Positions 32,734 through 59,070 are shown, counted from the stretch's first letter. The stretch: 64,000 bases of DNA from Halopelagius longus (GCF_900100875.1 NZ_FNKQ01000006.1:124001-188000); one strand, 5' to 3'. Program-made: numbers and translations. Notes: generated by a model from the sequence alone, not told the origin.

Positions 32734-32739
32734 TATAAC
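32734..32739 (+). promoter_or_regulatory. TATAAC box for leader ORF and toroid gene
   Basis: TATAAC within GTATAACAAA, 32 nt upstream of the GTG that opens the 16-aa leader ORF. Confidence 0.55.
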
Positions 32740-32765
32740 AAAGCCCCGGTGACCTGTCTCTGCTC

Positions 32766-32816
32766 GTGAACGCAAACGGCCGAGCGAGTCGCTCGGCGAG
32801 GATTTCAAACCAATGA
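32766..32816 (+). CDS. Leader ORF 1 (16 aa), stop overlaps next start
   Basis: GTG 32766 to TGA 32816 encodes MNANGRASRSARISNQ. The TGA overlaps the ATG of the toroid gene (ATGA at 32813-32816). The start lies 32 nt after a TATAAC box, where a short-leader mRNA would begin. It is probably translated from the 5' end and coupled to the main gene. Confidence 0.5.
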   Translation: MNANGRASRSARISNQ

Positions 32817-34180
32817 TTCCCTCATCAGATATCGTCACATCGGTTCTCGAACCGCTGCGCGAACGCCGGCGGCGTCGGCTGAAGCGGGCGCATCGTCTCT
32901 CTCTCGACTCGCGGCGCGGCGCCGACGACCGGGAGTTCATCGTCGGCCTGCTGGAAGACACGCTCGCGTACGCGAGGGCCCGCGACTACACCGGGTACGA
33001 CTACTTCGACGGGATGAGCAGCAAACTCCTGCGAGCGCTCCCCGTCGAGGACCAGTGGGTGAACATCGCCGTCCAAGAGAGCATCAAGCGCGCGCCGGTC
33101 AACGTCCGTCCCTTCTTCCTCGTCGAACAGCGTCAGAACTTCAAAGGGAGCGCGCTGTTCGCGATGGCGAATCAGACTGCCCACCGGTTCACGGGCGACG
33201 AACTGTACGCGAACGAGGCCGACTACCTCGCGAACTGGCTGCTGGAGAACCAAAGCGAGGGGTACAGCGGGTTCTGCGGCGGTCACCGCCACGCGATGCA
33301 GCAGATAGGCGAGTTCCGCGAGGCGGAGACGCCGAACGTCATTCCCACCTCCTTCGCGGTGAAAGCGCTCTGCCGACTCGCCGACAGGGACGAACGGTAC
33401 GAGGAGGCGGCCAAATCTGCGGCGGACTTCCTCGTCGACGACCTCCGGTACCAAGAGGTGGACGGCGGCGCGCGCATCGTCTACCAACCGGAGTACGACG
33501 GGGAGTTCTACACGCTCAACGGCGGCGCGATAGGCGCGCGCCTCCTCGTGGACCTCTACGACCAGTTCGGCGACGAGGAGTACCGCGAACGCGCCGCCGC
33601 ACTCCTCGATTACATCGCCACGAAGCAGACGGACCTCGGCGGGTGGAAGTACCGCGACCCGCCGTCGGCGTCGCACCTCTCGATGGACAACCACCACAAC
33701 GGCTTCATCATCGAGTCGTACCAGCACTACCACGAGGTCACCGGCGAGAAGCGCTACGAAGAGACGCTCGATAAAGCGCTGGAGTTCTACCGCACCGTCC
33801 TCTTCGACCCGGACGGCGGCCCGAACTGGGACGAGTCGAAGTCGTACCCGAAGGACATCCACCACGCGACGCAGGGCATCATCGTCTTCTCGAAGTCGGG
33901 CGACACCGCGTTCGCGCGGCGCATCATCGACTGGACCCTCGCGAACCTTTACGGCGGTCAGGGACAGTTCTACTACCAGAAGCGCCGGCTCTACACCAAG
34001 AACTTCACGCTGATGCGGTGGTGTCAGGCGTGGATGGCCTACGCCCTCGCGGAGTACCTCTCTGCGACCGCCGACTCGGATGCGGTCGCGGACGGAGCAA
34101 TCGCCGCCGGAACGCGAGCCGAGGAGAGCGAGGAGACGAGCGGAAACACCGCGGAGACGCCCGCGACGGAGGGAATCTAA
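32813..34180 (+). CDS. Alpha/alpha-toroid (six-hairpin) carbohydrate-active-like protein
   Basis: This 455-residue protein is helical throughout, with repeated hairpins and aromatic/His-rich loops (SGFCGGHRHAMQQIGE, SASHLSMDNHHNGFIIES, KDIHHATQGIIVFS) typical of six-hairpin glycosidase-like, lyase or epimerase folds. No signal peptide was seen, so it acts in the cytoplasm. ATG 32813 overlaps the leader ORF stop, and the stop (34178-34180) directly abuts the ATG of the sulfatase-fold gene at 34181, so the two are one operon. A hydrolase, epimerase or lyase acting on a lipid-linked glycan is inferred. The C-terminal 40 residues are acidic and disordered. Confidence 0.75.
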   Translation: MIPSSDIVTSVLEPLRERRRRRLKRAHRLSLDSRRGADDREFIVGLLEDTLAYARARDYTGYDYFDGMSSKLLRALPVEDQWVNIAVQESIKRAPVNVRPFFLVEQRQNFKGSALFAMANQTAHRFTGDELYANEADYLANWLLENQSEGYSGFCGGHRHAMQQIGEFREAETPNVIPTSFAVKALCRLADRDERYEEAAKSAADFLVDDLRYQEVDGGARIVYQPEYDGEFYTLNGGAIGARLLVDLYDQFGDEEYRERAAALLDYIATKQTDLGGWKYRDPPSASHLSMDNHHNGFIIESYQHYHEVTGEKRYEETLDKALEFYRTVLFDPDGGPNWDESKSYPKDIHHATQGIIVFSKSGDTAFARRIIDWTLANLYGGQGQFYYQKRRLYTKNFTLMRWCQAWMAYALAEYLSATADSDAVADGAIAAGTRAEESEETSGNTAETPATEGI

Positions 34181-35161
34181 ATGGACACATCGATACTACT
34201 CAACAACCTCAAGCGGTACTGGAACGACCCCGAATGGTGGCGCGACATCGCCCTCCCGTTCGGGGTCCGCGCCGGCGTCGTCCAACCGTACTTCGAGTAC
34301 GTGGAACCGCGCGAGGAGGGCGTCGAGTACTTCGACGAGGACTGGGACAACCTCGTCATCCTCGACGCCTGCCGCTACGACATGTTCGCCGAGAACAACA
34401 CCATCGAGGGCGAGTTGGAACACCGCATCTCGAAGGGGTCGAACACCGAGGAGTTCCTCAAGCGGAACTTCCGCGGCGGGCAGTTCGACGACGTGGTGTA
34501 CGTGACCGCCAACCCGCAGGTGGACGTCCGACTCGACTCGCCGTTCCACGACACCGTCTCCGTGTGGCGCGACGCGTGGGACGACGAGTTCAACACGGTG
34601 ACGCCCGAGGCGATGGTGGAAGCGACCCTCCGCGCGAAGGAGGAGTACCCCAACAAGCGCATCGTCAGCCACTTCGTCCAACCGCACTACCCGTTCATCG
34701 GTCCGCGGGGCCGCGAACTGTTCGGCGAACAGGCCGGTATCGAACTCTCGCGGCGGATGGCCGACGGCGAGGAGGCCAAAAGCGACCACATGAACGTGTG
34801 GGACATGCTCCAACGCGGCGAGATAGACGAGTCTACCCTCTGGGAAGCGTACGAGGAGAACCTCCGCATCGCCCTCCCCCACGTCGAACGGCTTATCGAC
34901 GAACTCGGCGGTAAGAGCGTCGTCACCTCCGACCACGGGAACCTCGTCGGCGAACGTCCCGAACCCTGTCCGGTGCCGATGAAGATGTACGGCCACCCGC
35001 CGGGCGTGTACGCCGACAACCTCGTGAAGGTGCCGTGGTTAGTCGTCGAAGGCGAGAGTCGCCGGACCGTCTTCGCCGAGGAGAGGTCGGACGAATCGAA
35101 AACCGGAGAGTCAGCCGACGAAGCGACCGAACGACTCCGCGATTTGGGATATCTCGAGTGA
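34181..35161 (+). CDS. Sulfatase/alkaline-phosphatase-fold protein A
   Basis: This 326-residue protein has the fold's first metal-site strand NLVILDACRYDMF, a VVYVTANP strand, RIVSHFVQPHYPFIGPRG, and the C-terminal metal motif SVVTSDHGNLVGE with a YGHPPGVY loop. The usual sulfatase nucleophile motif (CxPSR) is not seen. It is therefore more likely a phospho/sulfo-transferase or hydrolase of the wider superfamily. A paralogue occurs at 39784-40746. The gene is immediately downstream of the toroid gene and ends RLRDLGYLE, matching the paralogue's ESLGYL. It has no signal peptide. Confidence 0.8.
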   Translation: MDTSILLNNLKRYWNDPEWWRDIALPFGVRAGVVQPYFEYVEPREEGVEYFDEDWDNLVILDACRYDMFAENNTIEGELEHRISKGSNTEEFLKRNFRGGQFDDVVYVTANPQVDVRLDSPFHDTVSVWRDAWDDEFNTVTPEAMVEATLRAKEEYPNKRIVSHFVQPHYPFIGPRGRELFGEQAGIELSRRMADGEEAKSDHMNVWDMLQRGEIDESTLWEAYEENLRIALPHVERLIDELGGKSVVTSDHGNLVGERPEPCPVPMKMYGHPPGVYADNLVKVPWLVVEGESRRTVFAEERSDESKTGESADEATERLRDLGYLE

Positions 35162-35236
35162 GATGGCGTCCCCTCTCCGCGCGCCGCGGACGGTCCCCGT
35201 TGGTGTCGAACTCCCAGATTGTGTCTTTACGGTGAA

Positions 35237-35242
35237 TATAAC
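35237..35242 (+). promoter_or_regulatory. TATAAC box for beta-helix lipoprotein
   Basis: TATAAC within AATATAACC, 38 nt upstream of ATG 35275. Confidence 0.5.
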
Positions 35243-35274
35243 CATACCGACAAGCGGGCAAGGAACGAGATAGA

Positions 35275-36759
35275 ATGAACCGCCGTCGGTATCTCAAACT
35301 GCTCGGTGCGACCGCGGCCGCCGGTGCACTCGCGGGGTGCGGCGGCGAAGATACCACCGAGTCGCCGCCCACCGGTACCTCCACGCCGTCGAGCGAATCG
35401 GCTCGAACTCCGAGCGGTGAGTCCGAGACGGAGTCGAAACCGTACGGGTTCGACTTCGATACCGTCCTCAACGCCGTCGACGACCTCGGGATGGACCCGA
35501 CGGGGGAACAACCCATAGACGACGCGTTCGTCGGGTTTCTCGGCCGGAAGTCCACCCTCCTCGAGTTCCCGCCCGGACGCTACCGCTTCGAGAACTCCCA
35601 CGAGGTCGAACGCGCGAACACGTTGGGCGTTCGCGGCATCGGAGAGGACAGAGGAAAGGTCACCTTCTGGACGCCCGCGAAGGACGGACGGGAGTTCATC
35701 AACGTCCGAAACGGCGGTAACGGGTTTCTGTTGGCGGACGTCACGTTCGACCACGGAAACGGCCCGGGATCCATCGGGAACATCCTCCGGTTGGACGACA
35801 ACCTCCGCGTCCAGAACGTAGAGCACGTCGGGTTCAACCCGACGAGGCAGAACGGCGCGGTCGATAATCTCAGCCCGCAGATACTCTCGAAGAACGGGAC
35901 GGCCATCGTCGATACGTTCGTCCGGACCGGACCGACGAACATCGTCTCGCACGGCCACCTGAACGGGACGGCCAACGCCGGATGCATCTGGCTCGGCGAG
36001 GACCACGTCGGACGCCTCGTCATCAGAAACAGCCTGTTCAAGAACACCGGGACGAACACCATCTACTGTTCGCGCGCCCCCGGCGGCGTCGAGGTACGGA
36101 ACTCCGAGTTCGTCAACAACAACCAGGCGTCGATACGCATCGGCGGACGCGGGTCGTTCGTCAAGAACTGCACCTTCAAGGTCGATACGGAGAACGCCGC
36201 GAGGAAAAACAAGGGGAAGCTGATAAACCCGAACGGAATCGTTTGGGAGACCGGTAACCTCGGGCTGAAAGGCGGATACATCGAGAACTGCACGTTCGTA
36301 TTCGAATCCGCACCGAAGGGCCGCATCCTCTCGGGCATCTGGGCCGACGGGTCCGCGGGCGCGTTCGAGGTTCGGAGTTGTCGGTTCGTCATCAACGTCC
36401 CGAACGCCCGCGCGATTCGCGTCGACGACCCGAAGGACCCGCGCCTCGGAACGACGGCGGCGAAACCGTGGGGCGTCAAGTTGACCAACATCGTCGTGGA
36501 GGGAGAAGTCGCGACCAGTACGACGCCCCTCATCGAGATAAAGGGCCGACCGAACTCGATTCTCTCGGACTGCTGTCTCTCGGTCCCGGACCAGGAGGGC
36601 ATCGTCAGGCTCGTCGGGTCGCCCGGCAGTTCGTTCAAGAACATCAACGTGAGCGGCTCCGGAAACTGGCTGAAAGCCAAGACGAACAAGTTGGTTACGG
36701 AGAACGTCACGAGAGAGAACGTCTGCGCGTCGCTGACCGAATCGGTCGGGGCGAACTGA
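35275..36759 (+). CDS. Tat-exported lipoprotein with right-handed beta-helix (pectate-lyase-like)
   Basis: This 494-residue protein has an N-terminal Tat/lipobox (NRRRYLKLLGATAAAGALAGC) and an acidic Ser/Thr linker. From ~60 comes a parallel beta-helix beginning FDTVLNAVDDLGMDP and LLEFPPGRYRF, typical of pectate-lyase-3-like domains, with repeated short strands (LVIRNSLFKNTGTNTIYC, VEVRNSEFVNNNQASIRI). It probably binds or cleaves an acidic surface glycan; catalytic residues cannot be assigned. It is closely related to the N-terminal half of the protein at 37003-39741 and to the shortened protein at 50249-51244. Confidence 0.82.
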   Translation: MNRRRYLKLLGATAAAGALAGCGGEDTTESPPTGTSTPSSESARTPSGESETESKPYGFDFDTVLNAVDDLGMDPTGEQPIDDAFVGFLGRKSTLLEFPPGRYRFENSHEVERANTLGVRGIGEDRGKVTFWTPAKDGREFINVRNGGNGFLLADVTFDHGNGPGSIGNILRLDDNLRVQNVEHVGFNPTRQNGAVDNLSPQILSKNGTAIVDTFVRTGPTNIVSHGHLNGTANAGCIWLGEDHVGRLVIRNSLFKNTGTNTIYCSRAPGGVEVRNSEFVNNNQASIRIGGRGSFVKNCTFKVDTENAARKNKGKLINPNGIVWETGNLGLKGGYIENCTFVFESAPKGRILSGIWADGSAGAFEVRSCRFVINVPNARAIRVDDPKDPRLGTTAAKPWGVKLTNIVVEGEVATSTTPLIEIKGRPNSILSDCCLSVPDQEGIVRLVGSPGSSFKNINVSGSGNWLKAKTNKLVTENVTRENVCASLTESVGAN

Positions 36760-36806
36760 CGGCCGGACTACACTTTCATACGCCGTTATTCCCGTTCCCA
36801 CTCGGT

Positions 36807-36838
36807 TAACACGTCCGTAAATTACCCATTAACGGCCG
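36807..36838 (+). promoter_or_regulatory. GTTAACACG element shared with upstream region of the third paralogue
   Basis: CTCGGTTAACACG occurs at 36801-36813 and a related CTCGGTGTTAACACG at 50032-50046. Both lie ~190-215 nt upstream of related beta-helix genes (37003, 50249). An ATTAAC follows at 36828-36833. Possibly a common regulator site. Confidence 0.35.
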
Positions 36839-37002
36839 TTTTAGAGCCTTAGAGCCGAGAATCGTCGATACAAGTAGGAAGTAAATACATTCAGGAAAAG
36901 AGTACATTCGTTTATTTTTTGTTGTCCCACAGCACATTTCTGTACTAATATCGAGAAATATACGAAAAGTATATATTCTGGAGGTGGTGTGAATCATCCG
37001 GA

Positions 37003-39741: not shown

Positions 39742-39783
39742 ACCCGGACGCACCCGTTTCGGTCACCGCTCCTCGGTTCACGC

Positions 39784-40945: not shown

Positions 40946-40951
40946 GATAAC
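40946..40951 (+). promoter_or_regulatory. GATAAC box for amidotransferase
   Basis: GATAAC, 35 nt upstream of ATG 40981. A second TATAAC lies at 40916-40921, 65 nt from the start. Confidence 0.4.
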
Positions 40952-40980
40952 GCGCACGTAGCACGCGCGGCTCTCAAACT

Positions 40981-42816: not shown

Positions 42817-43782
42817 TCAGACCGAGACTCGCCCGGAGAGCCACTGCTTCGCGCGGCGCGCCGACCCGTAGGTGAACGGACCGCCGATGGCCAACGCCAG
42901 ATAGCCGTACGCGGACACCTGCGTCGGGTCGCGCCGAATCGACCGGAGGAGGTGTCGAACCGAGTCGCGGTAGTAGCCGTTTCTGAGCGCCGAGAACCCG
43001 AGCGTGCGGTCGAAGTTGGAGAGGAACTCCCGGCGGCAGTCCTCGCCGTACGACGCCGCGAGCGACTCGTGTTTCTCGACGATGAGGGGGACGGACTCGT
43101 CGCGTTTCTTCTCGAAGTTGTCGGTTATCTGGCCGTGGTCGGTGACGCGCCGGACGACCAACGCCTCGGGCACTGAGGCGTAGCGGGCGTGTTGCGAGAG
43201 GCGGATGTGCCACTCGCGGTCCTGCAGACTCGGCAGTCGTTCGTCGGGGTAGCCCGCGTCGTCGAAAACCTCGCGGCGGACCGCAAATCGGGAGAACGTC
43301 GCCGCTTGGAGGGTTCCGCGGAGGAGTCGTTCGGTCACGTCGCCGGCGTACTCGGGAACGACGCTGCCGATCTGTTCGCCGTCGGCGTCCACGATTTGCA
43401 CGCCGGCGGCGACGACGCCCACCTCGGAACCGCCCGCGTCGAACGCCTCGAGGTATCGCTCGACGAGTCTCGGTTCCCAGTAGTCGTCGTCGTCGAGGAA
43501 GGCGACTATCTCGCCGTCCGTGGCTTCGATGCCGGTTCGACGGGCGGCGTTCGCGCCCCGGTTCTCCTCGTGGCGGAGACACCGCCACGAGAGGCCGTCG
43601 AGCGACAGGTCCTCGAGGACCGGTTCGACCGGTTCGGGCGAGTGGTCGTCCACGACGACGAGTTCGACGTTCGAGTACGTCTGCGCCGCGACGCTCTCGA
43701 CGGCGTCGGGGAGGTAGTCCGGCCGGCCGTACGTCGGGATGACCACGCTCACTTCGGGGGCGTACTCGGATGTCGCGTCCAT
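42817..43782 (-). CDS. Family 2 glycosyltransferase
   Basis: This ~321-residue GT-A enzyme has VSVVIPTYGRPDYLPDAVES, VVVDDHSPEP (nucleotide site), NRGANAARRTGI and the metal-binding VAFLDDDDYWEPR. The remaining ~180 residues form the acceptor domain. No transmembrane segment. ATG 43782 is chosen over a GTG at 43797 since a TATAAC box lies 34 nt upstream of it. It probably adds a hexose or uronate to a lipid-linked glycan. It is convergent with the amidotransferase gene. Confidence 0.87.
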   Translation of the reverse strand: MDATSEYAPEVSVVIPTYGRPDYLPDAVESVAAQTYSNVELVVVDDHSPEPVEPVLEDLSLDGLSWRCLRHEENRGANAARRTGIEATDGEIVAFLDDDDYWEPRLVERYLEAFDAGGSEVGVVAAGVQIVDADGEQIGSVVPEYAGDVTERLLRGTLQAATFSRFAVRREVFDDAGYPDERLPSLQDREWHIRLSQHARYASVPEALVVRRVTDHGQITDNFEKKRDESVPLIVEKHESLAASYGEDCRREFLSNFDRTLGFSALRNGYYRDSVRHLLRSIRRDPTQVSAYGYLALAIGGPFTYGSARRAKQWLSGRVSV

Positions 43783-43810
43783 TGTCGGAACATTCACCGA
43801 AGCGGGTTTT

Positions 43811-43816
43811 GTTATA
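43811..43816 (-). promoter_or_regulatory. TATAAC box for GT2
   Basis: TATAAC (within CTATAACAAAA) on the minus strand, 34 nt upstream of ATG 43782. Confidence 0.55.
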
Positions 43817-43925
43817 GGGAGCGTTCCGCGACGACGGCTCGAACCGAGGGCGAGAAGCGCGATTTCGGAACCGGTCGGAGAGCCGAGGCGGCGGCGTCTC
43901 CGGTCGGGATGTCTGTTATTCTGAT

Positions 43926-43931
43926 AGTAAC
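43926..43931 (+). promoter_or_regulatory. AGTAAC box for leader ORF 2
   Basis: AGTAAC within GATAGTAACGAA, 34 nt upstream of GTG 43960. Confidence 0.4.
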
Positions 43932-43959
43932 GAAGGTGATACGGAGTAGACAGCCGGTA

Positions 43960-44028
43960 GTGACCCGCAACTCGACCATCCGAGGGGGAGTGTCGTTCGA
44001 AGCCGTCAGGCAGGGGAGGGAGCCGTGA
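43960..44028 (+). CDS. Leader ORF 2 (22 aa) before DUF1616 gene
   Basis: GTG 43960 to TGA 44028, beginning MTRNSTIRGG. Its TGA overlaps the GTG start of the DUF1616 gene as GTGA at 44025-44028. GGGGAGGG just upstream of the overlap may serve as a Shine-Dalgarno sequence. Confidence 0.5.
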   Translation: MTRNSTIRGGVSFEAVRQGREP

Positions 44029-45107
44029 GTCGGAAGGGACTCGCGGCGGACGCGATTGTGACCCTCGCCCTCGTCGCGGGGACCGCCTTCGTCGTCAGTT
44101 CGGGCATCGGCGGTCCGTTGCAGGTGGTCGCCGGCGCGGTTCTCGTGCTGTTCCTTCCGGGGTACGCGGTTTCGACGCTCGTGTTTCCGGCCACGGAGTC
44201 CGGCCGGTCTCCGTCCGACGTGATGTCGAGACGCGGGAACGCCGGGTGGCAACTCGGCGGCGGCAGCGGACCGAAACGCGCGGGGCTTCCGTTCCTCGAA
44301 CGCCTCGCGTTCGGGTTCGGACTCAGCGTCGCGTTCGTCCCCGTGTTCGCGTGGACGCTCGACGTCGGGATGTTGGAGTACCAGCGACCGGCGATTATCG
44401 GCATCGCGACCGGAACGGCCGCCGTGGCGACGATTCTCGGCGCCGTTCGGCGCGCCAGAACCCCCGACGGGACGCGGTACGTCGTTCCGTTCGCTCACGG
44501 AGTCGCCGGCGTCCGAGACGCGTTCGACGGATCGAACGGAAACCGAGCCGTGAACGCCGCTCTCGCGGTGGCGATACTCCTCGCGGTCGGGGCGGTGACG
44601 TTCAGTCTCGCCGCGCCCGCCGACGGGTCGGAGTTCACGCAGGTGTCGATTCTCACCGAACAGGAGAACGGGAACCTCACCGCCGGCGGGTACCCCGAGC
44701 AGTTCACCAGCGGAACGTCCTCGGAGATGGTTCTGCTGGTGGAGAACTACGAACACGAGCGGACGAAGTACACCGCCGTGGTCCAACTTCAGCGCGTCGA
44801 GGACGGCCAAGTCGTCGAGCGCGAGGAGCTGAATCGGGAGTCTCAGACGCTCTACCCCGGCCAATCGTGGCAGTACGGGCACCGGGTGACGCCGACGATG
44901 GAGGGGCAGGACCTCCGACTCGTCTACCTCGTCTACCGCGGTGACGCGCCGGCCGACGCGCGCGAGGAGACGGCGTACCGTTCGGTCAACATCTGGTTCG
45001 ACGTGGTTCCGGTCGGCAACGGAAACGGGGCGAACGGCAGTAGCCAAGCCGCGACGGACGGGACGACGCAGACTGCGACCGAAACGGCGACGCAGACCGA
45101 GCCGTAA
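44025..45107 (+). CDS. DUF1616 membrane protein
   Basis: This 360-residue protein starts at GTG 44025, overlapping leader ORF 2. The N-terminal half has four transmembrane helices (ADAIVTLALVAGTAFVV, GGPLQVVAGAVLVLFLPGYA, LAFGFGLSVAFVPVFAWTLD, AIIGIATGTAAVATILG) and LPGYAVSTLVFP, the DUF1616 hallmark. A fifth helix (NAALAVAILLAVGAVTFSLA) leads to an exterior beta domain (QVSILTEQENGNLTAGGYP), ending in a disordered Thr/Glu tail. DUF1616 genes are frequent in archaeal glycosylation loci; function is unknown. Confidence 0.83.
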   Translation: MSRKGLAADAIVTLALVAGTAFVVSSGIGGPLQVVAGAVLVLFLPGYAVSTLVFPATESGRSPSDVMSRRGNAGWQLGGGSGPKRAGLPFLERLAFGFGLSVAFVPVFAWTLDVGMLEYQRPAIIGIATGTAAVATILGAVRRARTPDGTRYVVPFAHGVAGVRDAFDGSNGNRAVNAALAVAILLAVGAVTFSLAAPADGSEFTQVSILTEQENGNLTAGGYPEQFTSGTSSEMVLLVENYEHERTKYTAVVQLQRVEDGQVVEREELNRESQTLYPGQSWQYGHRVTPTMEGQDLRLVYLVYRGDAPADAREETAYRSVNIWFDVVPVGNGNGANGSSQAATDGTTQTATETATQTEP

Positions 45108-45134: not shown

Positions 45135-46088
45135 TTACGCTCTGCCGCCGCCCGCGCGGCCGCCGGGGAGATTCACCTTCTTTCGGAGCGACGTGAACGC
45201 GAGCGTCAGTCGGACCATCGCGTCCAGACAGACGAGCGCGAACCGGTCGCCTCGTGCCCGGTCTGAGCGCGACGAGGTCGGTTTCGAGTACTCCCTCGCC
45301 AGTTTGGACACCTCGGGGCGGGTCGCCGCCAGCAGTCGCCGACGCCGCCGTCCGGCGGCGCGCTTTCGGAGGTACGACCGCACGTCCGTCGCGTAATCGT
45401 GGTAGATGACCGGACGGGGGTCGTAGACGATATCCTCGCGGTCGTAGCCGCTTGTGAGCAGTCGGTACGTCAGTTCGATTCCCTCGTGGCCCGCCCGCCC
45501 GGAGAGCGACTCGTCGAACCCGCTGACCTCCCGGAAAGCCGCGCGTCGGATCGAGGCGTTGCCCTCGATGTTCAGCGTGAAGGGAACCCGCTCGTCGCCG
45601 AGGTCGTACCACGTCTGCAGGCGGTTGTACAGCGAGTCGCTCCGCGGGAGGACCCGGCCGCGGACGGCCACCGCCCCGTCGTCGTGTGCGGCGCGGTGCG
45701 CGGCGACGAAGTCGCCGTCCGGGATGCCGTCGTCGTCGAGGAAGATCAGGAGGTCGGAGGCCGCCACCTCGGCACCGACGTTCCGAGCCACCGTGACGCC
45801 GTAGTTGCCGTCGAGGTGGACGAGGGCGCTCACTCGTTCGGTCCGTTCGACGAGTTCGTCGAGGTCGAACCGGACGCCGTTGTCGACGACGATCACCTCG
45901 AAGTCGTCCGCCGTCTGTTCGTCGAGGGCGTCGAGCGTCTCTCGAAGCACCGCCCGCGGCGTCCCGTAGGTGACGATGACGACGCTCGCGGAGGGTGCTG
46001 CGGACAGGGGACGCTCGGTCGAACTGCCGACCATCTCGCGGTACTGCGCCGGGAGTTCGTCGACGCGAGACGAAGTAGCAGCCGACAT
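45135..46088 (-). CDS. Family 2 glycosyltransferase
   Basis: This 317-residue GT-A enzyme has SASVVIVTYGTPRAVLRETL, VIVVDNGVRFD, DGNYGVTVARNVGAEVA, LLIFLDDDGIPDGDF (metal-binding DDD) and NASIRRAAFREVSGFDE, all rhamnosyl/hexosyl-transferase-like. A basic patch (RKRAAGRRRRRLLAA) near the C-terminus may contact the membrane. ATG 46088 is preferred; a GTG at 46097 would overlap the stop of the preceding small gene as GTGA. It is in an operon with the 90-aa gene upstream. Confidence 0.87.
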   Translation of the reverse strand: MSAATSSRVDELPAQYREMVGSSTERPLSAAPSASVVIVTYGTPRAVLRETLDALDEQTADDFEVIVVDNGVRFDLDELVERTERVSALVHLDGNYGVTVARNVGAEVAASDLLIFLDDDGIPDGDFVAAHRAAHDDGAVAVRGRVLPRSDSLYNRLQTWYDLGDERVPFTLNIEGNASIRRAAFREVSGFDESLSGRAGHEGIELTYRLLTSGYDREDIVYDPRPVIYHDYATDVRSYLRKRAAGRRRRRLLAATRPEVSKLAREYSKPTSSRSDRARGDRFALVCLDAMVRLTLAFTSLRKKVNLPGGRAGGGRA

Positions 46089-46093
46089 CGGTG

Positions 46094-46366
46094 TCACTCC
46101 TCGGGAGCGTCGTTTCGGGCCGGTCCGTCGTCCTCGTCGGCGTCCCCCGGAAGCTCCGTGTCCAAGAACTCCTCTCGGCCGGGGAGCGCCGCCACGGCTT
46201 CGTTTATGCCGCGGTACGCGGCCGTCTCGACGGCGTCCTCGAAGGCGTTCGTCGAGGGGTACTCCCGGAGCGTGAGCACCCGGCCGTCTTCGGTCAGGTA
46301 GACGATTTCGGTCGTCCCGTCCGTGTGGCTGTACTCGTCGCCTTCCACCGGCGCGTCGTCACTCAT
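46094..46366 (-). CDS. Small acidic protein, unknown function (glycan operon)
   Basis: This 90-residue protein has a beta-rich core TTEIVYLTEDGRVLTLREYP then FEDAVETAAYRGINEAVAALP and an acidic tail. No domain recognised. Its stop (46094) lies between the alternative starts of the GT2 gene, so translation is coupled. Its ATG overlaps the stop of leader ORF 3 by 8 nt. Confidence 0.65.
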   Translation of the reverse strand: MSDDAPVEGDEYSHTDGTTEIVYLTEDGRVLTLREYPSTNAFEDAVETAAYRGINEAVAALPGREEFLDTELPGDADEDDGPARNDAPEE

Positions 46367-46445
46367 CGTTCGAGTCCGCGAAGTCGGTCAGTGCGCAGTC
46401 CCGTCGGGAGGGGCGGGTCGCGCCCACTCCGGTACGTCGGTTCAT
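46359..46445 (-). CDS. Leader ORF 3 (28 aa)
   Basis: ATG 46445 to TGA 46359 on the minus strand, beginning MNRRTGVGATRP. It starts 34 nt after an AATAAC box and its stop overlaps the following start by 8 nt (ATGAGTGA). Confidence 0.45.
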   Translation of the reverse strand: MNRRTGVGATRPSRRDCALTDFADSNDE

Positions 46446-46473
46446 GAGTACCCGTACGATTCGAACCATTATC

Positions 46474-46479
46474 GTTATT
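46474..46479 (-). promoter_or_regulatory. AATAAC box for leader ORF 3
   Basis: AATAAC within GAATAACGATAA on the minus strand, 34 nt upstream of ATG 46445. Confidence 0.45.
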
Positions 46480-46610
46480 CTGCCCGAAGTGAAGGCCGTT
46501 CCACGATCACCCATCCGCGCCGCGTCTGCGTCTGCGATTCCTTCCGGCGGACGCCGTCGGCCTCCGGTCTTTCGCGCCGACGGTCAGGAGTTCGCGGGCG
46601 TTACTTTAGA

Positions 46611-46616
46611 CATAAC
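46611..46616 (+). promoter_or_regulatory. CATAAC box for leader ORF 4
   Basis: CATAAC within GACATAACGAAA, 34 nt upstream of GTG 46645. Confidence 0.5.
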
Positions 46617-46644
46617 GAAAGGAGCGGTATTCGTGGTGGTGAGT

Positions 46645-46719
46645 GTGAAATTCGTATCGACAGCGGTACGCACTATCGGGGCGGACAGACACGGTTGCTG
46701 TCCGTCCCTCGATCGATGA
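46645..46719 (+). CDS. Leader ORF 4 (24 aa)
   Basis: GTG 46645 to TGA 46719, beginning MKFVSTAVRT and containing a CC pair near the end. Further in-frame GTGs at 46633, 46636 and 46639 are possible starts. The stop overlaps the main ATG as ATGA at 46716-46719. Confidence 0.5.
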   Translation: MKFVSTAVRTIGADRHGCCPSLDR

Positions 46720-48611
46720 GTGCGACTCGGACGGGGTGGTCGCAGTCACGGGCGGTGAGCGACGACGCTCTGCGCCTCGCACTCGTCGTCGGCTACCTCG
46801 CTCTCGCCGCGGGAGTCGTCGTAGCGAGGGTGAACCCCTCGCCCGGGTACGACGCGTCGATATACGCCTCGACGCCGTTCGTCTACTGGGCCGGCTTCGG
46901 CCTCGCGGTCGCACTCGGCCTCGGCGTCGCCGTCTTCGGCCGACGAGTGACGCGAGCGCTCGGCGTCGCACTCGCCGGACTCGCCATGCTCACCTTCCTC
47001 GGTCTGCCGTTCCTCCGAGGGACGTACTTCTACGGGTCCGGCGACGCGTTGACCCACCTCGGACTGGCGAAGTCGCTCCTGCGGACCGACTTCGCGTTCA
47101 TGGACCTCATCTATCCCGGCGGGCACTCGCTGGCTATCTTCCTCTCGGAGGCGATGGGCGTTCCGCTCCGTCACGGGTTGATGTACGCCATGATGACCGC
47201 GTCGGTGGTCAGCCTCGTGTTCGTCCCCCTCGCCGTGTGGGCCGTCGTCCCCGACGGTCGCGCGGTCGGGTTGGCGGTGTTCACGGCGATGCTGATGCTG
47301 CCGATGAACAACATCAGCACCCATCCGGGCTTCCACAGCTACACGCTGACGACGCTGTACTTCCCGTTCGTCCTCTATCTCACGTTCAAACACATCACGC
47401 GGGGGGCGGAGGACGAGACGCTCCCGGAGTGGGCGTCGGCGGTGAGTCTCGTCGCGCCCATCGCACTCGGCGCGACGGTGTTCTACCACCCGCAGGTGGC
47501 CATCGACGTGCTCATCCTACTGTTCACGGTGTTCGCCGTGGGGTACGTCCTGCGCCGCCGCACGGAGACCGCCGGGGCCGCCGGGGCCACCGGGACCACC
47601 AGGACGTTCGATCATCGACTGCTCACCGGGCAGGTTCTCGCCCTCGCGGTGATATTCACCGCGTGGGCCGTCCAGCACCAACAGACGTTCATCTTCGCCG
47701 AGAACCTGACGAACTCCGTCACGGGGTTCCTCCAGACGGGAGAGGGCGCCGGACAGATAGCGCAGGACCGCGGGAAATCGGCCGACTCGCTGAACATCAG
47801 CCTCGAGGTGCTGTTCGTCAAACTGTTCGGCATCTCGTTCCTGTACACCCTGCTGGCGGGCGGTCTGGTGCTGAAGGAGGTACTTGGTGGCGTCCTCCGC
47901 GACCGGAGCGGCGACGACTCCGAGATGGCCGTGACGTACATCGGCTTCTCGGCGCTAACCCTCGGGCCGTTCTTCGCCGCGCAGTTCGTCGGCAACGTGT
48001 CGTCGTACTTCTTCCGCCACCTCGGCTTCGCGATGGTTCTCATCGGCGTTCTCGGCGCTATCGCCCTCTACAAGGCGGTGACCGAGTACGGATCCGCCCT
48101 GAGCGGCGGTGCGCGCGTCGCGAGCGTCCTCCTCGCCGTTCTCGTCCTGACGGGGTCGCTCGTGGCGTTCTACCCCTCGCCGTACATCTACCTCCCCTCC
48201 TCGGAGACGCCCGAATCGCAGTTCGTCGGCTACGACGCCACGTTCAAACATCAAGCCGAAGAAGTCCCCGTGGCGAAGGTGCGCATCGGTGCCTCGCGCT
48301 TCACCGACGCGCTCACGACGACGGTTCCCGGCCGACTGCTGTGGAGTCCGAACAAGACCGAGTTCGACAGCATCGAGAACTTGACGAAGTATCGGGAGAA
48401 CGAACGGACGGACCACCCCGGATACTACCTCGTCGTCTCCGAACGCGACAAGGGCCGCGAGGTGAAAGGGTTCCACGGCATCCGCTATCAGCGGGAGGAC
48501 TTCCGAGAGATAGACGGGGCGGTCACGCCGCGACTCTCCCGCGTGCAGACGAACGGCGACTACCGTCTGTACTACGTCGACCAAGAGGGACTGGTGAACA
48601 CGACCGACTGA
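46716..48611 (+). CDS. Polytopic GT-C-like membrane protein (polymerase/glycosyltransferase candidate)
   Basis: This 631-residue protein has about twelve transmembrane helices and a ~120-residue exterior C-terminal domain. The first large loop carries FYGSGDALTHLGLAKSLL, with an acidic residue at the place of the GT-C catalytic Asp, followed by FMDLIYPGGHSLAIF, a pattern of GT-C glycosyltransferases or O-antigen-polymerase-like proteins. A Gly/Ala/Thr loop near 47570-47600 is low-complexity. ATG 46716 overlaps leader ORF 4. It probably transfers or polymerises lipid-linked sugar on the outer face; exact activity is unknown. Confidence 0.78.
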   Translation: MSATRTGWSQSRAVSDDALRLALVVGYLALAAGVVVARVNPSPGYDASIYASTPFVYWAGFGLAVALGLGVAVFGRRVTRALGVALAGLAMLTFLGLPFLRGTYFYGSGDALTHLGLAKSLLRTDFAFMDLIYPGGHSLAIFLSEAMGVPLRHGLMYAMMTASVVSLVFVPLAVWAVVPDGRAVGLAVFTAMLMLPMNNISTHPGFHSYTLTTLYFPFVLYLTFKHITRGAEDETLPEWASAVSLVAPIALGATVFYHPQVAIDVLILLFTVFAVGYVLRRRTETAGAAGATGTTRTFDHRLLTGQVLALAVIFTAWAVQHQQTFIFAENLTNSVTGFLQTGEGAGQIAQDRGKSADSLNISLEVLFVKLFGISFLYTLLAGGLVLKEVLGGVLRDRSGDDSEMAVTYIGFSALTLGPFFAAQFVGNVSSYFFRHLGFAMVLIGVLGAIALYKAVTEYGSALSGGARVASVLLAVLVLTGSLVAFYPSPYIYLPSSETPESQFVGYDATFKHQAEEVPVAKVRIGASRFTDALTTTVPGRLLWSPNKTEFDSIENLTKYRENERTDHPGYYLVVSERDKGREVKGFHGIRYQREDFREIDGAVTPRLSRVQTNGDYRLYYVDQEGLVNTTD

Positions 48612-52813: not shown

Positions 52814-52851
52814 ACCGCGGTCTGAGGGGGGCTAACTTCAGTTCGTCGACG

Positions 52852-52857
52852 CATAAC
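52852..52857 (+). promoter_or_regulatory. CATAAC box for leader ORF 5
   Basis: CATAAC within GCATAACAAAA, 35 nt upstream of ATG 52887. Confidence 0.5.
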
Positions 52858-52886
52858 AAAACACGTTCTCCGTCGCTGTACAGTCG

Positions 52887-52967
52887 ATGACGAGGACACC
52901 TATCGTCTCGGAGCAGACACCGAGGAGCGACGACTGCGAGACGACGCGCGCGGGGGGATGGACGTGA
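52887..52967 (+). CDS. Leader ORF 5 (26 aa)
   Basis: ATG 52887 to TGA 52967, beginning MTRTPIVSEQTPR. Its stop forms GTGA (52964-52967) with an in-frame GTG of the DUF354 gene, suggesting this GTG rather than ATG 52958 may be the true main start. A GGGGGGA run 6-12 nt before could help re-initiation. Confidence 0.5.
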   Translation: MTRTPIVSEQTPRSDDCETTRAGGWT

Positions 52968-54070
52968 GCGAGACGGAACTCGCGCGGGCGGACGACGACG
53001 CGCGACGGACGCCTCGGGGCCGACCGGTGAACGTGTGGGTGGACCTCGCCAGCCCGAGCCACCCGTTCTTCTTCAAAGCGCTCACCGACAGTCTCTCGAA
53101 CGTCAGCACGGAGGTGACCGTCCGCGAGAAGACGGAAACCGTACCGCTCGCGGACGAAGTCGGCTTCGACTTCGAGACGGTCGGGAAGGACTACGAGAAC
53201 CCGACGCTCCGGAAAGTGGGGATTCCCATGCGGACCGCGCAACTGACGTTCAACGCGCCCGCCGCGGACGTGGCGCTCTCCTCGCGGAACGCGATGTGCG
53301 TCCTCGCCGCGAAGGCGCGCGGGACCCCCTCCATCCACTTCACGGACAACGACATCTGCGCCTACGTGGACGACCTGAAGGCCGAGGAGCTGTACCACCG
53401 ACTCGAAGCGCAGGCGACGCACAACGTCGTCCCGAAGGCGTTCGAGACGTCGGTGCTGACCGAACGCGGCGCGGACCCCGACAGCGTCCACACCTACGAC
53501 GGGTACAAGGAGGACGTGTACGTCGCCGCCTTCGAACCGGACCCGACGTTCCCCGAGCGACTGCCGTTCGACGGCGAGGAGTTCATCGTCGTCCGCCCGG
53601 AGGCCCTCACGGCGACGTACGTGGACGCCGACGGGAGCATCGTCCCCGACCTGCTCGCGGGCGCGGCCGAACGCGACATCAACGTCGTCTACCTCCCGCG
53701 CAACGACGGCGACGAGAAGTTCGCCGAGGGAGTCCCCTCCGAGAACGTGTACGTCCCCGACGAGGCCCTCGACGGCCTCGAACTCGCGTGGCACGCGCGG
53801 TGCATGCTCACCGGGTCCGGGACGATGGCGCGGGAGGCCGCCCGCATGGAGACGCCCGCAGTCTCCTTCTTCCCGAGCACGCGCATCTCGGTGGACCAAG
53901 CGCTCATCGACGAGGGCGAGATATTCCACTCTCGCGACGCCGAGGAGATTCTCGACTACGTCGAATCGCTCACCGACGACGACGCGGAACCCGACCTGAC
54001 CCGCGCGAAACGCGTCCGCCGCGAGGTGGCCGACCTGACCGCTCGTCTCGTCAACGAGTCCGTCCAGTAA
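52958..54070 (+). CDS. DUF354 (GT-B-like) protein
   Basis: This 370-residue protein (368 if GTG 52964 is used) begins VNVWVDLASPSHPFFFKAL after a polar head, the N-terminal signature of archaeal DUF354. It contains FTDNDICAYV, RPEALTATYV and LTGSGTMAREAARMETPAVSFFP near the C-terminus. DUF354 has a UDP-GlcNAc 2-epimerase/GT-B-like fold; the substrate is unknown but it is common in archaeal glycan loci. A T6 run follows at 54098-54103. Transcription probably includes leader ORF 5. Confidence 0.83.
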   Translation: MDVSETELARADDDARRTPRGRPVNVWVDLASPSHPFFFKALTDSLSNVSTEVTVREKTETVPLADEVGFDFETVGKDYENPTLRKVGIPMRTAQLTFNAPAADVALSSRNAMCVLAAKARGTPSIHFTDNDICAYVDDLKAEELYHRLEAQATHNVVPKAFETSVLTERGADPDSVHTYDGYKEDVYVAAFEPDPTFPERLPFDGEEFIVVRPEALTATYVDADGSIVPDLLAGAAERDINVVYLPRNDGDEKFAEGVPSENVYVPDEALDGLELAWHARCMLTGSGTMAREAARMETPAVSFFPSTRISVDQALIDEGEIFHSRDAEEILDYVESLTDDDAEPDLTRAKRVRREVADLTARLVNESVQ

Positions 54071-54097
54071 CCGACTGCGGCGAATCGAGCTGTCACG

Positions 54098-54103
54098 TTT
54101 TTT
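54098..54103 (+). terminator. T-rich terminator of DUF354 gene
   Basis: Six T (GTTTTTTC) 28 nt after the stop, as archaeal termination usually uses. Confidence 0.5.
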
Positions 54104-54314
54104 CTGCGGACGCGGTGGGGTAGAAACCAACGCGTTCGAGACGCAGTTCACCACCCAATCGGCCCGGAAACGGGTCCAGTCGTCGTTTCGTGTTGGTAAC
54201 TCCGGACACGGTGGTGCGCCGAAGTCTACCAAAGAGGGGGAGTCACGGGTCGAGTCGGCACGCCCGTTTTGCGCGACCGACGCACCCGGTCATCGACGCG
54301 CCGATTTTTTCGCT

Positions 54315-54333
54315 GCGCCGCCGATGGCGGCGC
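54315..54333. repeat. Perfect 8-bp hairpin
   Basis: GCGCCGCC-GAT-GGCGGCGC, a perfect inverted repeat between convergent genes. It lies next to a T6 run (54305-54310) on the plus strand, which precedes rather than follows the stem. Confidence 0.5.
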
Positions 54334-54365
54334 GGCCGCCGTCGCGCGGGGGGCGGCGGAGCACG

Positions 54366-54411
54366 GAGAGGAGGAGAGGGGAGGGGGTGTGGGGAGGGGA
54401 GAGGAGGAGAG
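54366..54411. repeat. 21-nt homopurine mirror repeat
   Basis: Left arm 54366-54386 and right arm 54391-54411 are exact mirror images (not inverted) of all-purine sequence beginning GAGAGGAGGAG, separated by GTGT. Such sequence can form H-DNA (triplex) or G-rich structures. It sits 4 nt past the stop of the dehydrogenase gene. Confidence 0.8.
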
Positions 54412-54415
54412 GACG

Positions 54416-55633: not shown

Positions 55634-55756
55634 GGCGACGGATACGGGCGGCGTCGCGTTCAGTATGGACGGTATAACGGGGTAGAGGCCGGAGAGAAAG
55701 CGGGTACCCCCGACTCCGATACGGCCCGTCGAAGGCCCGATGGGGCTTAATAACCG

Positions 55757-55762
55757 TATAAC
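55757..55762 (+). promoter_or_regulatory. TATAAC box for isomerase
   Basis: TATAAC within CCGTATAACAATG, 33 nt upstream of ATG 55790; it decides the start. Confidence 0.5.
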
Positions 55763-55789
55763 AATGCTTACATGAAAGAGTTCGCGGGT

Positions 55790-56734
55790 ATGAAGCGCAG
55801 ACTCCGTCCAGCGTTCCAACTGCACAGCGTCCGGGAGTTCTCGGACCCCCTCCCCGAGGTGATTCGCCGCGTCGGCGCGGCGGGGTTCGAGGGCGTCGAG
55901 TTCGCGGGCCGTTTTCGGGATGCCGACCCCGACGCCGTCGCCGACGCCCTAGACGAGACGGGCGTCGAACCTGTCGCCGTCCACGCCGAACTGTCGGCGA
56001 TAGAGGCGGCGGTCGAGGGCGAGAACGACCTGCTCGACCGGTGCGAGACGGTGGGCTGTGACCGCCTCGTCGTCCCCCGCGTTCCGTCGTGGTACTTCTG
56101 CAGTCGGTGGAACGTCCGCGAACTCTCCTACCGACTCACCGACCTCTCTCACGAACTCGACGCTCGCGACGTCGACATCGGGTACCACAACGTCAGAAAC
56201 GACCTCTGGCCGTTCCTCCCCGACCGGGTGACCGAGACCCTCGAACGGTCGCCGCTTCCGGCCGGACTCGCCACCTACGCCTCCCGCGGACTGGCGGAGT
56301 TCGGCCGCGACGACCGGAACCGCATCCCCGACGAAACCGGCTTCTGGAACCTCGTCGCCCGCACCGCGCCCGACGACCTGTTCTTCGAACTCGACGTGGG
56401 TGAGGTGTACGCCGCCGGATTCGACCCCGTCGCCGCGTTCGAGGTGGTCTCGGGGCGCGTCCCGACGATTCACCTCCGCGACGTGGCTCCGACGGGTCGG
56501 TTCGGCGCGTACGAGGACGTCGAACGCGGAACCGGCGTCGTGGACACCGGTCGCGTCCTCTCGGCGGCGCGGCGGGCGGGCGTCGAGTGGGTCGTCTACG
56601 AGAACGAACTGGACGCCGGCCCCGACGAGAAACTCGAAGACGGCGCTGCGCTCGTTCGGCAGTTCTTCGACGACGAGTCCGCGGCGTCTGCGTCCGAAGG
56701 CGGAGCGTCGCCGACGGTCGGTTCGACGCGGTAA
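55790..56734 (+). CDS. Sugar phosphate isomerase/epimerase (xylose-isomerase-like TIM barrel)
   Basis: This 314-residue protein (ATG 55790; ATG 55772 would add six) begins RPAFQLHSVREFSDP and has the TIM-barrel metal-site segments GFEGVEFAGRF, VAVHAELSA, IGYHNVRNDLWPF, FFELDVGEVYAAG, TIHLRDVAPTG and WVVYENELD. Glu/Asp/His at the strand ends fit a divalent metal-dependent isomerase/epimerase. It would work with the divergent dehydrogenase in making or recycling a sugar. An FG-GAP-repeat gene follows. Confidence 0.82.
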   Translation: MKRRLRPAFQLHSVREFSDPLPEVIRRVGAAGFEGVEFAGRFRDADPDAVADALDETGVEPVAVHAELSAIEAAVEGENDLLDRCETVGCDRLVVPRVPSWYFCSRWNVRELSYRLTDLSHELDARDVDIGYHNVRNDLWPFLPDRVTETLERSPLPAGLATYASRGLAEFGRDDRNRIPDETGFWNLVARTAPDDLFFELDVGEVYAAGFDPVAAFEVVSGRVPTIHLRDVAPTGRFGAYEDVERGTGVVDTGRVLSAARRAGVEWVVYENELDAGPDEKLEDGAALVRQFFDDESAASASEGGASPTVGSTR

Positions 56735-56793
56735 GTTGGCCGGCCGAACCCGTCTCCGACGCCGGATATTCGGCCATCGGACGTTAATATCGT

Positions 56794-56799
56794 CATTAC
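56794..56799 (+). promoter_or_regulatory. CATTAC box for FG-GAP gene
   Basis: CATTAC within GTCATTACAATC, 38 nt upstream of ATG 56832. Confidence 0.4.
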
Positions 56800-56831
56800 A
56801 ATCTCTCTATCGTACCGTTGTTGGGTCGTAC

Positions 56832-57977
56832 ATGGAGTTCCAACACAGCCGAATCGACGATTCCCCGCCGTGCGGTCAGATGAGCTTCTGCCTCACGACC
56901 GACCTGACGGGGAACGGCCTTCCCGACGTCATCGTCGGTGCGCTCGGCGGTATCTATCCGTTTACGGTCCCCGTCATCGGCAAGGATCTCAACCTCCGGA
57001 AACTGCCGGGAACCCGCGAAGTGATAAAGCAGATGGAGACGAACGTCTTCTGGTACGAGAACCCCGGGTGGGAGCGACACGACGTGGCGAAAGCGCCCGA
57101 CCTCTCGGTCGGCGGGTCTCTCGGCGACATCTCCGGCGACGGGACGATGGACCTCGTCGCCGGGCAGAACCTGAACGAACACGACCTCTACTGGTTCGAG
57201 CAACCCGACGACCCCCGCGAGGAGTGGACGCGCCGCCTCATCACCGACGACTTCGAGAAGTACCACGACACCGCCGTCGCGGACGTGGACGGCGACGGCG
57301 AGGACGAGGTGGTCGTCCTCTCCCAAGAGAGCGCGGTCGTCTTCTACTACGACATCCCCGAGGACCCCCGGCGCGAACCGTGGCCGGTCGAGAACCGCCA
57401 CATGGTCGCCGAGGACCTCGACGTGGAGGGCGTCGAAGTCGCGGACGTGGACGGCGACGGGACGGTCGAGATTCTCGCCGGCCCCAACGTGTTCCACCGG
57501 AACGGCGACGGGACGTGGGACCGCGAGAGCATCGCCGAGGGGTGGCCGTGGACGCGCCTCGCCGTGGCGGACGTGGACGACGACGGCGAGGACGAGATTC
57601 TCGTCACCGAGGGCGACCTGCCGTATCAGGATCCCGACGACCGACGCGCCCGACTCGGCCTGTTCGACCCGCCGGAGTGGACGCCGACCATCCTGCACGA
57701 CGACCTGTCGAACCCCCACAGCCTCCAGGTCGCCGACATCGACGACGACGGCGACTTGGAGATATACGTCGCCGAGATGGGCCTCGAAGAGGGACACACC
57801 CCGCGGCAGTTCGTCTTCCACCGGAACGACGACGGGAGCTTCGAACCGGAGGTCATCGAAGAGGGCGTCGCGACCCACGAGGCGAAAGTCGTGGACTTAG
57901 ACGGCGACGGCCGCCTCGACATCGTGGGGAAGGGGTACTCCGAGCGCAACGTGGACGCGTGGTTCAACGTGGTCTGA
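56832..57977 (+). CDS. FG-GAP/VCBS-repeat beta-propeller without signal peptide
   Basis: This 381-residue protein is a series of FG-GAP/VCBS repeats, each with a Ca-binding loop: DVDGDGEDE, DVDGDGTVE, DVDDDGEDE, DIDDDGDLE, DLDGDGRLD. They form a seven-bladed-type beta-propeller. No signal peptide or transmembrane segment is visible, so it would be cytoplasmic although such repeats are usually exported. It may bind a glycan or a protein complex. It lies in a gene string with the isomerase upstream and, after a 16-codon ORF, a deacetylase downstream. Confidence 0.82.
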   Translation: MEFQHSRIDDSPPCGQMSFCLTTDLTGNGLPDVIVGALGGIYPFTVPVIGKDLNLRKLPGTREVIKQMETNVFWYENPGWERHDVAKAPDLSVGGSLGDISGDGTMDLVAGQNLNEHDLYWFEQPDDPREEWTRRLITDDFEKYHDTAVADVDGDGEDEVVVLSQESAVVFYYDIPEDPRREPWPVENRHMVAEDLDVEGVEVADVDGDGTVEILAGPNVFHRNGDGTWDRESIAEGWPWTRLAVADVDDDGEDEILVTEGDLPYQDPDDRRARLGLFDPPEWTPTILHDDLSNPHSLQVADIDDDGDLEIYVAEMGLEEGHTPRQFVFHRNDDGSFEPEVIEEGVATHEAKVVDLDGDGRLDIVGKGYSERNVDAWFNVV

Positions 57978-57979
57978 AG

Positions 57980-58030
57980 ATGGTCGCACGGACGCACGCT
58001 CACCCGCGGAACTCCGTCAGCGAGAGGTAA
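57980..58030 (+). CDS. Possible 16-aa spacer ORF
   Basis: ATG 57980 to TAA 58030 encodes MVARTHAHPRNSVSER. It begins 2 nt after the FG-GAP stop and ends 1 nt before the deacetylase ATG, and may pass ribosomes to the next gene or be chance. Confidence 0.3.
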   Translation: MVARTHAHPRNSVSER

Positions 58031-58031
58031 G

Positions 58032-58904
58032 ATGGCGCCGGAGAGCGACCTCCTGCCGCGGACGACGCGACGACTCGAACGGGCGGGGTTCGAGGCGTTG
58101 GGTCGCGCGGACCGGCGTCTCGGGTTCTCGCATCTCTACCCCGACGAGGCGAACGGCGTGCTCATGTACCACGCAGTCGGGTCGCCCGAGAAGTACGGGA
58201 ACGTCTCGGTCGGTCGGTTCCGCCGCGATTTGGAGTACCTGACGACGCACTTCGAGGTGTGCGACCTGCCCGCCGTCCTCGACGACGACGGCGGAAAGCG
58301 CGTCGCGTTGACGTTCGACGACGCGTACGACGACTTCTACGAGAACGTTCTCCCCCTCCTCCGACGGTACGGGGTTCCGGCCACCCTGTTCGTCCCGGTG
58401 GCGTTCGTCGGCGGCGGGCGGACCGACCTCGCGTACCGGTTCGGCCGGTCGCCCGCGGAGTTCGACCGCTACAACGACCCCGAGGCGCACCGCGACTACG
58501 GCGGCCCCGCGCCGGGCGTGATGTCGTGGGACCGACTCCGCGAGGTTGCGGCCGACGAACTGGTGACGGTCGGAAACCACACGCGGACGCACCCCGACCT
58601 CTCGCGTCTCTCCGCGCCGTCGGACCTCGAACCGGAAATCGTCGGCGCGCGCGACGAACTGGCGGAGCGACTCGGCGTCGATATCGACCGATTTTGCTTC
58701 CCCTACGGCCGGTACTCCGAGGAGGCGGCGGAACTCGTCGCCGAGACGCACGACGTGAGCGTCACCTCGCGGCGGGGCCTTCTCTTCGACCCGGCGTCGA
58801 ACGACGGACACCTCCTGCCGCGCGTCCGGGCGCACGACCCCGAACACCGCGTCCGGTGGGACCTCTCGGCGGTGCGGTGGCGACTGGTCGAACGACTCGG
58901 TTAA
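58032..58904 (+). CDS. Polysaccharide deacetylase (NodB domain), cytoplasmic
   Basis: This 290-residue protein has VLMYHAVGSPEKYG, the catalytic TFDDAYDDFYENVLP, and metal motif 2 VGNHTRTHPDL (H-T-R-T-H), so all NodB metal ligands are present, unlike the two lipoprotein paralogues. RFCFPYGRYSEEA is motif 3. No signal peptide. It would remove an N-acetyl (or O-acetyl) group from a sugar of a glycan intermediate. Located 54 nt after the FG-GAP gene. Confidence 0.87.
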   Translation: MAPESDLLPRTTRRLERAGFEALGRADRRLGFSHLYPDEANGVLMYHAVGSPEKYGNVSVGRFRRDLEYLTTHFEVCDLPAVLDDDGGKRVALTFDDAYDDFYENVLPLLRRYGVPATLFVPVAFVGGGRTDLAYRFGRSPAEFDRYNDPEAHRDYGGPAPGVMSWDRLREVAADELVTVGNHTRTHPDLSRLSAPSDLEPEIVGARDELAERLGVDIDRFCFPYGRYSEEAAELVAETHDVSVTSRRGLLFDPASNDGHLLPRVRAHDPEHRVRWDLSAVRWRLVERLG

Positions 58905-58995
58905 CCGGCGACTCCGTTCTCTGACCTGACGCAGGGCCCGGATAATTGACGGACGACGGAAGGGTACGTATTCGGCCGTGGGACATTAACCCAGA

Positions 58996-59001
58996 TATAA
59001 C
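58996..59001 (+). promoter_or_regulatory. TATAAC box for leader ORF 6
   Basis: TATAAC within GATATAACGATA, 36 nt upstream of ATG 59032. Confidence 0.55.
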
Positions 59002-59031
59002 GATACCGACGTAGAACGCCCAATTCGAACA

Positions 59032-59070
59032 ATGGCTCAGTTACGGACAAGCGAGGGGATGTCACCGTGA
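59032..59070 (+). CDS. Leader ORF 6 (12 aa)
   Basis: ATG 59032 to TGA 59070 encodes MAQLRTSEGMSP. The stop overlaps the flippase start as GTGA (59067-59070). GAGGGG about 10 nt before the GTG may also act as a ribosome-binding site. Confidence 0.5.
   Translation: MAQLRTSEGMSP

Follow-up and report, generated by a model that had tools for sequence, protein, structure and literature searches.

How do haloarchaeal genes with a real 5' leader obtain ribosomes? A testable case is provided by a 64,000-nucleotide (nt) stretch of Halopelagius longus DNA (contig C6, NZ_FNKQ01000006.1, positions 124001-188000; the window, in which coordinates are counted unless marked C6). Here six short open reading frames (ORFs), which we call leaders, stand between a promoter box and the start codon of a main gene in a promoter-defined surface-glycan set. 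All six, described in an earlier note on this DNA, are reproduced from the sequence with their coordinates, start codons and lengths (16, 22, 28, 24, 26 and 12 amino acids, aa), their overlaps with the main starts (five of 4 nt and one of 8 nt) and their boxes, which lie 32-36 nt upstream of the leader starts (Table 1). The box hexamers are of RTAAC type and read, for leaders 1 to 6, TATAAC, AGTAAC, AATAAC (minus strand), CATAAC, CATAAC and TATAAC. We propose that the main genes are probably reached by near-leaderless initiation on the leader followed by termination-reinitiation at the main start, a form of ribosome delivery in which the coupling is suggested by conservation.

The arrangement extends beyond the window. 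A scan of C6 up to its last 433 bases reveals five more leaders behind the same YATAAC box, so that the count of six holds for the window and falls short for the contig, where leaders number 11. Under a single box definition, ten C6 box genes are leader-coupled, eight are leaderless, four have a plain 5' untranslated region (UTR) and none has a leader ending elsewhere. The box-aligned start codon on C6 is either the gene's own start or the start of a leader that ends on the main start, and never opens an ORF ending elsewhere. Box and start are equally far apart at leaders and at leaderless box genes, with a median of 35 nt in both groups. The leaderless genes include a nucleotidyl transferase, a DUF1616 protein, polysaccharide deacetylases, a phosphodiesterase and a GT2 protein. 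An NTGA start is present at only three of ten such genes, indicating that the overlap does not simply reflect a general preference of this gene set. That the leader is universal for the box, as had been implied, is not supported, given the many box genes that are leaderless or carry a plain 5' UTR. Two GT2-like box genes (window 62132, minus; C6 72342, minus) have no leader start codon. Their 5' UTRs are plain, the box lying about 150 and 89 nt upstream of the called start, and they offer a contrast for initiation studies.

An overlapping upstream ORF (uORF) is not in itself rare. In 1 Mb of the same organism's chromosome, 17% of out-of-frame ATG or GTG codons located 30-190 nt upstream of genes produce an overlap of 4 or 8 nt. 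One contributing reason is that A is the next base after 35% of start codons (NTGA). Together with the scarcity of stops in GC-rich DNA, this would let overlapping uORFs arise free of charge, and the long open frames around leaders 2 and 4 fit such an origin. The informative, non-chance part is the coincidence with the box. At the background rate of 0.17, the chance that 11 of 11 leaders on C6 end on the main start, with none ending elsewhere, is ~4e-9, or 1e-5 if the frame alone is counted as random. Leaders are also kept in a congener and several other genera, and on these box-conditioned counts and this conservation we reject chance overlap as barely credible.

The same chromosomal megabase serves as a control for promoters in general. 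Among 250 canonical AACGTTTAT-type promoters, 8 have a coupled ORF, 5 one ending near the main start and 23 one ending elsewhere, while 144 are leaderless and 70 have no start. The coupled, near and elsewhere counts are close to background, and leader architecture is strongly over-represented among C6 box genes compared with the canonical chromosomal promoters (Fisher 4e-8). We therefore reject, for this genome, the notion that the leader arrangement is a general haloarchaeal promoter property. The few chromosomal leader cases, near background overall, are possibly real individually; genes near C1 543716, 729689 and 842286 (all plus) have canonical promoters with box-aligned overlapping leader ORFs.

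Conservation in a close relative, named by the earlier note as a test, supports the leaders. In a collinear contig of a same-genus genome (G001:C3, ~80% nucleotide identity), leaders 2-6 keep their start codon, frame and overlap while their peptides differ. The leader start codon is kept in all eight aligned leader pairs between the two contigs, as against 8 of 15 other ATG or GTG triplets in the same stretches. Leader length changes by -1, -1, +1 and -3 codons across these pairs with the frame always maintained, and the 8-nt overlap of leader 3 is a 4-nt overlap in the congener. We further note that the leader of the sugar-nucleotide pyrophosphorylase gene (C6 ~8694-8779, minus; box 8814) is 97% identical to its congener counterpart, compared with 88% for the start of its gene, and possibly has a second, sequence-specific function.

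Leader 1 behaves differently. At this 'toroid' locus (32734-32816) one box-aligned start opens an out-of-frame leader here and an in-frame, longer protein in the congener, whose box-aligned ATG is fused to the main ORF as an N-terminal extension (G001:C3 158314, plus). This raises the alternative that the box-aligned start is the true gene start throughout, the leader joining the main frame directly or via a frameshift and the N-termini being mis-annotated. At the other loci, in the species compared, a stop codon coincides with the main start or lies no more than 6 nt from it, which makes this alternative highly unlikely. No slippery site was noticed at the leaders, although no systematic search was made.

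Leaders are also conserved outside the genus. For seven main genes, homologues were drawn from up to 170 genomes of the family, and those with a recognisable box comprise 52 with coupled leaders, 23 leaderless genes, 17 with a plain UTR and 8 others, three of which are WecB leaders with a later ATG. The stop-to-start spacing of the 52 coupled leaders is -4 in 41 cases, -8 in four, 0 in one and +4 to +6 in six. Seeming exceptions in the GT-C and WecB families resolve into leaders that end 4-6 nt upstream of the main start or that have a later ATG. Leader length and sequence vary freely, with 11 aa in one genus and 19, 24 or 34 aa in others. Carriers include Halogeometricum limi and H. pallidum (DUF354 and DUF1616 leaders), Halogranum rubrum (flippase, DUF1616 and GT-C) and a Halomarina halobia plasmid (flippase). 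In one genus, flippase homologues (L048-L055) have a 24-aa leader with an ATGA overlap about 34 nt behind TTACAT rather than YATAAC; there the leader persists though the box has changed.

What is kept at the leaders seems to be translation of the frame, with the peptide unimportant. Leader substitutions are distributed 14/15/14 over the three codon positions (pN 0.17, pS 0.23, for nonsynonymous and synonymous change), compared with 282/170/567 in the main genes. This even distribution points to retention of the frame's translation and supports the earlier suggestion that the act of translation matters; a conserved leader peptide is rejected on the same counts and on the divergence of the peptides. 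Basic residues are abundant in the leader peptides, in contrast to the proteome. A sensing leader peptide or attenuator, in which the peptide or its codons respond to an amino acid or ligand, would account for the shortness and precise placement of the leaders, and for the near-identity of the pyrophosphorylase leader in the two congeners. Peptides nevertheless diverge widely between species (MAQLRTSEGMSP versus MKQSGARGGLVP), share no residue runs and show no third-position bias, and we consider this explanation very improbable. A riboswitch, thermosensor or other RNA structure is likewise unsupported: the leaders have no match to a known RNA family in Rfam, and their predicted folds show no consistent stability (z -2.4 to +0.7, scattered around zero).

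In the scheme that we favour, transcription from the YATAAC-box promoter would start a few nt before the leader start codon, and ribosomes would initiate on the leader in a leaderless or near-leaderless manner. They would translate 11-60 codons, the sequence of which is of little importance, and terminate where a stop codon overlaps or touches the main start codon, usually in ATGA or GTGA, before re-initiating on the main gene. The leader would thus be a ribosome-delivery device through which a promoter 70-220 nt upstream feeds a gene that lacks a leaderless start option. In Haloferax volcanii, all nine tested overlapping gene pairs are strictly coupled and Shine-Dalgarno (SD) motifs do not drive de novo initiation in haloarchaea (PMC6728339), while termination-reinitiation is efficient at spacings of -8 to +6 and nearly abolished at ~20 nt (PMC10666635). 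Fifteen nucleotides of upstream ORF suffice for reinitiation in E. coli (PMC10666635). The stops of the six window leaders and the 52 homologue leaders fit the range for coupled ORF pairs (about -8 to +6 nt). An SD-like motif of at least 4 nt precedes the main start in 8 of 11 C6 leaders and 62% of homologues; the corresponding shares are 30% for leading genes and 68% for operon overlaps of 4 nt on the chromosome. The motif was not found at leaders 3, 4 and 5. Leaderless initiation followed by re-initiation, as first suggested, is consistent with the conservation in the congener, with the H. volcanii spacing range and with these motifs at leader 3' ends, as in operon overlaps.

The earlier note went further and read the leaders as a shared post-transcriptional control, a part that the analysis does not support, since nothing in it demonstrates regulation beyond plain ribosome delivery. 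Re-initiation efficiency might be regulated or might simply set a lower output. Such a leader could throttle or gate expression of surface-glycan genes in a co-ordinated way, through low or condition-dependent re-initiation or by shielding the transcript from early termination while the leader is translated. That the architecture clusters in a single functional gene set, behind a single box, argues for this, as does its retention over long divergence despite leaderless versions of homologous genes. Given that the analysis indicates neither condition dependence nor a conserved peptide, fold or Rfam match, we regard a regulatory function as possible but doubtful.

Several points weigh against ribosome delivery through the leaders. 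Homologues share ancestry and their counts are not independent trials, so the argument rests on frame and spacing outliving the leader sequence, and many homologues lack the box and fall outside the scoring. A plain 5' UTR is found at some box genes, including close homologues (L247, L250, L252, L234-L240), whose translation presumably proceeds with no leader; the leader is therefore not obligatory. In the WecB leaders and some of those of DUF1616, the start lies 44-50 nt downstream of the box, making a short 5' UTR likely there. Leaders 2 and 4 lie in frames that stay open a long way upstream (783 and 369 nt) and contain several other possible starts, so that their start choice depends on box and conservation. 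Finally, main starts were assigned from reading frame and homology; DUF354 has further in-frame starts at 52958 and 53027, and its true start could be the latter. The GTGAG(C/T) overlap at the DUF354 leader is kept in six genomes.

In many cases the box itself forms the right half of a 17-bp dyad, RTTAY-N7-RTAAC, with RA after it. In the window, dyads at boxes 2, 4, 5 and 6 stand upstream of surface-glycan genes (Table 1). The pattern RTT-N9-ATAACRA has 13 sites in the 3.87 Mb genome, nine of them on C6, which makes up 5% of the genome, and the reversed control pattern has one; the dyad is heavily concentrated on C6, with few occurrences on the main chromosome. It is perhaps a regulator site or a TFB-specific core promoter. 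We tentatively raise a broader picture, which at present seems rather unlikely, of a haloarchaeal surface-glycan regulon defined by the non-canonical promoter dyad RTTAY-N7-YATAACRA. Its standard second mode of initiation would be a leaderless mini-ORF with termination-reinitiation, tuned, across genera, as a post-transcriptional control common to flippases, glycosyltransferases and sugar-nucleotide enzymes.

Table 1. Boxes, leader ORFs and associated genes in the window and elsewhere on C6.
Feature	Position	Strand	Details
Box 1, YATAAC-type	32734..32741	+	TATAACAA; 32 nt upstream of leader 1
Leader ORF 1	32766..32816	+	GTG, 16 aa; 4-nt overlap ATGA
Main gene 1, 'toroid'	32813..34180	+	455 aa; Pfam: sub-threshold Pec_lyase match only
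Leaderless GT2 gene	42817..43816	-	TATAACAA box 34 nt upstream, no leader; internal comparison
Dyad GTTAT-N7-GTAAC	43915..43933	+	Includes box 2, AGTAACGA
Leader ORF 2	43960..44028	+	GTG, 22 aa; 4-nt overlap GTGA
Main gene 2, DUF1616	44025..45107	+	PF07760
Box 3	46472..46479	-	AATAACGA
Leader ORF 3	46359..46445	-	ATG, 28 aa; 8-nt overlap ATGAGTGA
Main gene 3	46094..46366	-	90-aa protein
GT2 gene after main gene 3	45135-46097	-	PF00535; own 4-nt overlap with main gene 3
Dyad GTTAC-N7-ATAAC	46600..46618	+	Includes box 4, CATAACGA
Leader ORF 4	46645..46719	+	GTG, 24 aa; 4-nt overlap ATGA
Main gene 4, membrane GT-C-like	46716..48611	+	No Pfam match
GTTCG-N7-ATAAC	52841..52859	+	Includes box 5, CATAACAA
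Leader ORF 5	52887..52967	+	ATG, 26 aa; 4-nt overlap GTGA
Main gene 5, DUF354	52964..54070	+	PF04007
ATTAA-N7-ATAAC	58985..59003	+	Includes box 6, TATAACGA
Leader ORF 6	59032..59070	+	ATG, 12 aa; 4-nt overlap GTGA
Main gene 6, Wzx-type flippase	59067..60569	+	PF13440/PF01943
Leader before sugar-nucleotide pyrophosphorylase	C6 box 8814	-	
Leader before UDP-GlcNAc 2-epimerase	C6 box 11666	+	
Leader before beta-helix protein	C6 box 70865	-	
Leader before second flippase	C6 box 92209	-	
Leader before 380-aa protein	C6 box 94178	+	No Pfam match

Within this gene set, one box feeds leaderless, leader-ORF and plain-UTR messages, which permits direct comparison of homologous genes. The leaders are unannotated coupled mini-ORFs apparently kept for translation rather than product, and they call for caution, as for genes of this kind functional ORFs lie concealed within annotated starts and intergenic regions. 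In the open-licence literature searched, we found no description of a box-defined surface-glycan gene set using termination-reinitiation leaders across genera.

Mycobacteria reportedly also have leaderless short ORFs upstream of genes (PMC4633059, PMC9094748). As is proposed for the leaders here, these start leaderlessly and lie near the gene that follows. The sensing or attenuator type of mycobacterial leader depends on the codons of its peptide; that type is bacterial and codon-dependent, whereas the leaders here are archaeal and their codons unconstrained.

Closer parallels are found within the same archaeal class. The overlapping gene pairs of H. volcanii share with the leaders the ATGA or GTGA overlap, spacings of -4, -8 and 0 to +6, and an SD-like motif inside the upstream ORF (PMC6728339, PMC10666635). 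They differ in that the upstream partner is an ordinary gene, whereas here it is an ORF of 11-60 aa with no evident peptide function, directly behind a promoter. A 15-aa uORF was listed in 2016 in the long 5' UTR of H. volcanii agl15, a probable glycan flippase gene (PMC4983044, Table 2). Like a leader, it is a short ORF between a mapped transcription start site and a flippase gene, which supplies transcript evidence of independent origin for this class of gene. In the section consulted, the uORFs are instead presented as small proteins in 150-250 nt UTRs, with no mention of an overlap, a box or a link between genes. That a short uORF can 'deliver' the ribosome to a coupled gene is an established idea (reviewed in PMC12548453). 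The function proposed there is identical, in that the act of translation matters and not the product; the context is bacterial or synthetic and not tied to one promoter box or pathway. The mechanism considered here is of a known kind; the novelty lies in its being tied to a single promoter box and a single pathway, and in its persisting from genus to genus.

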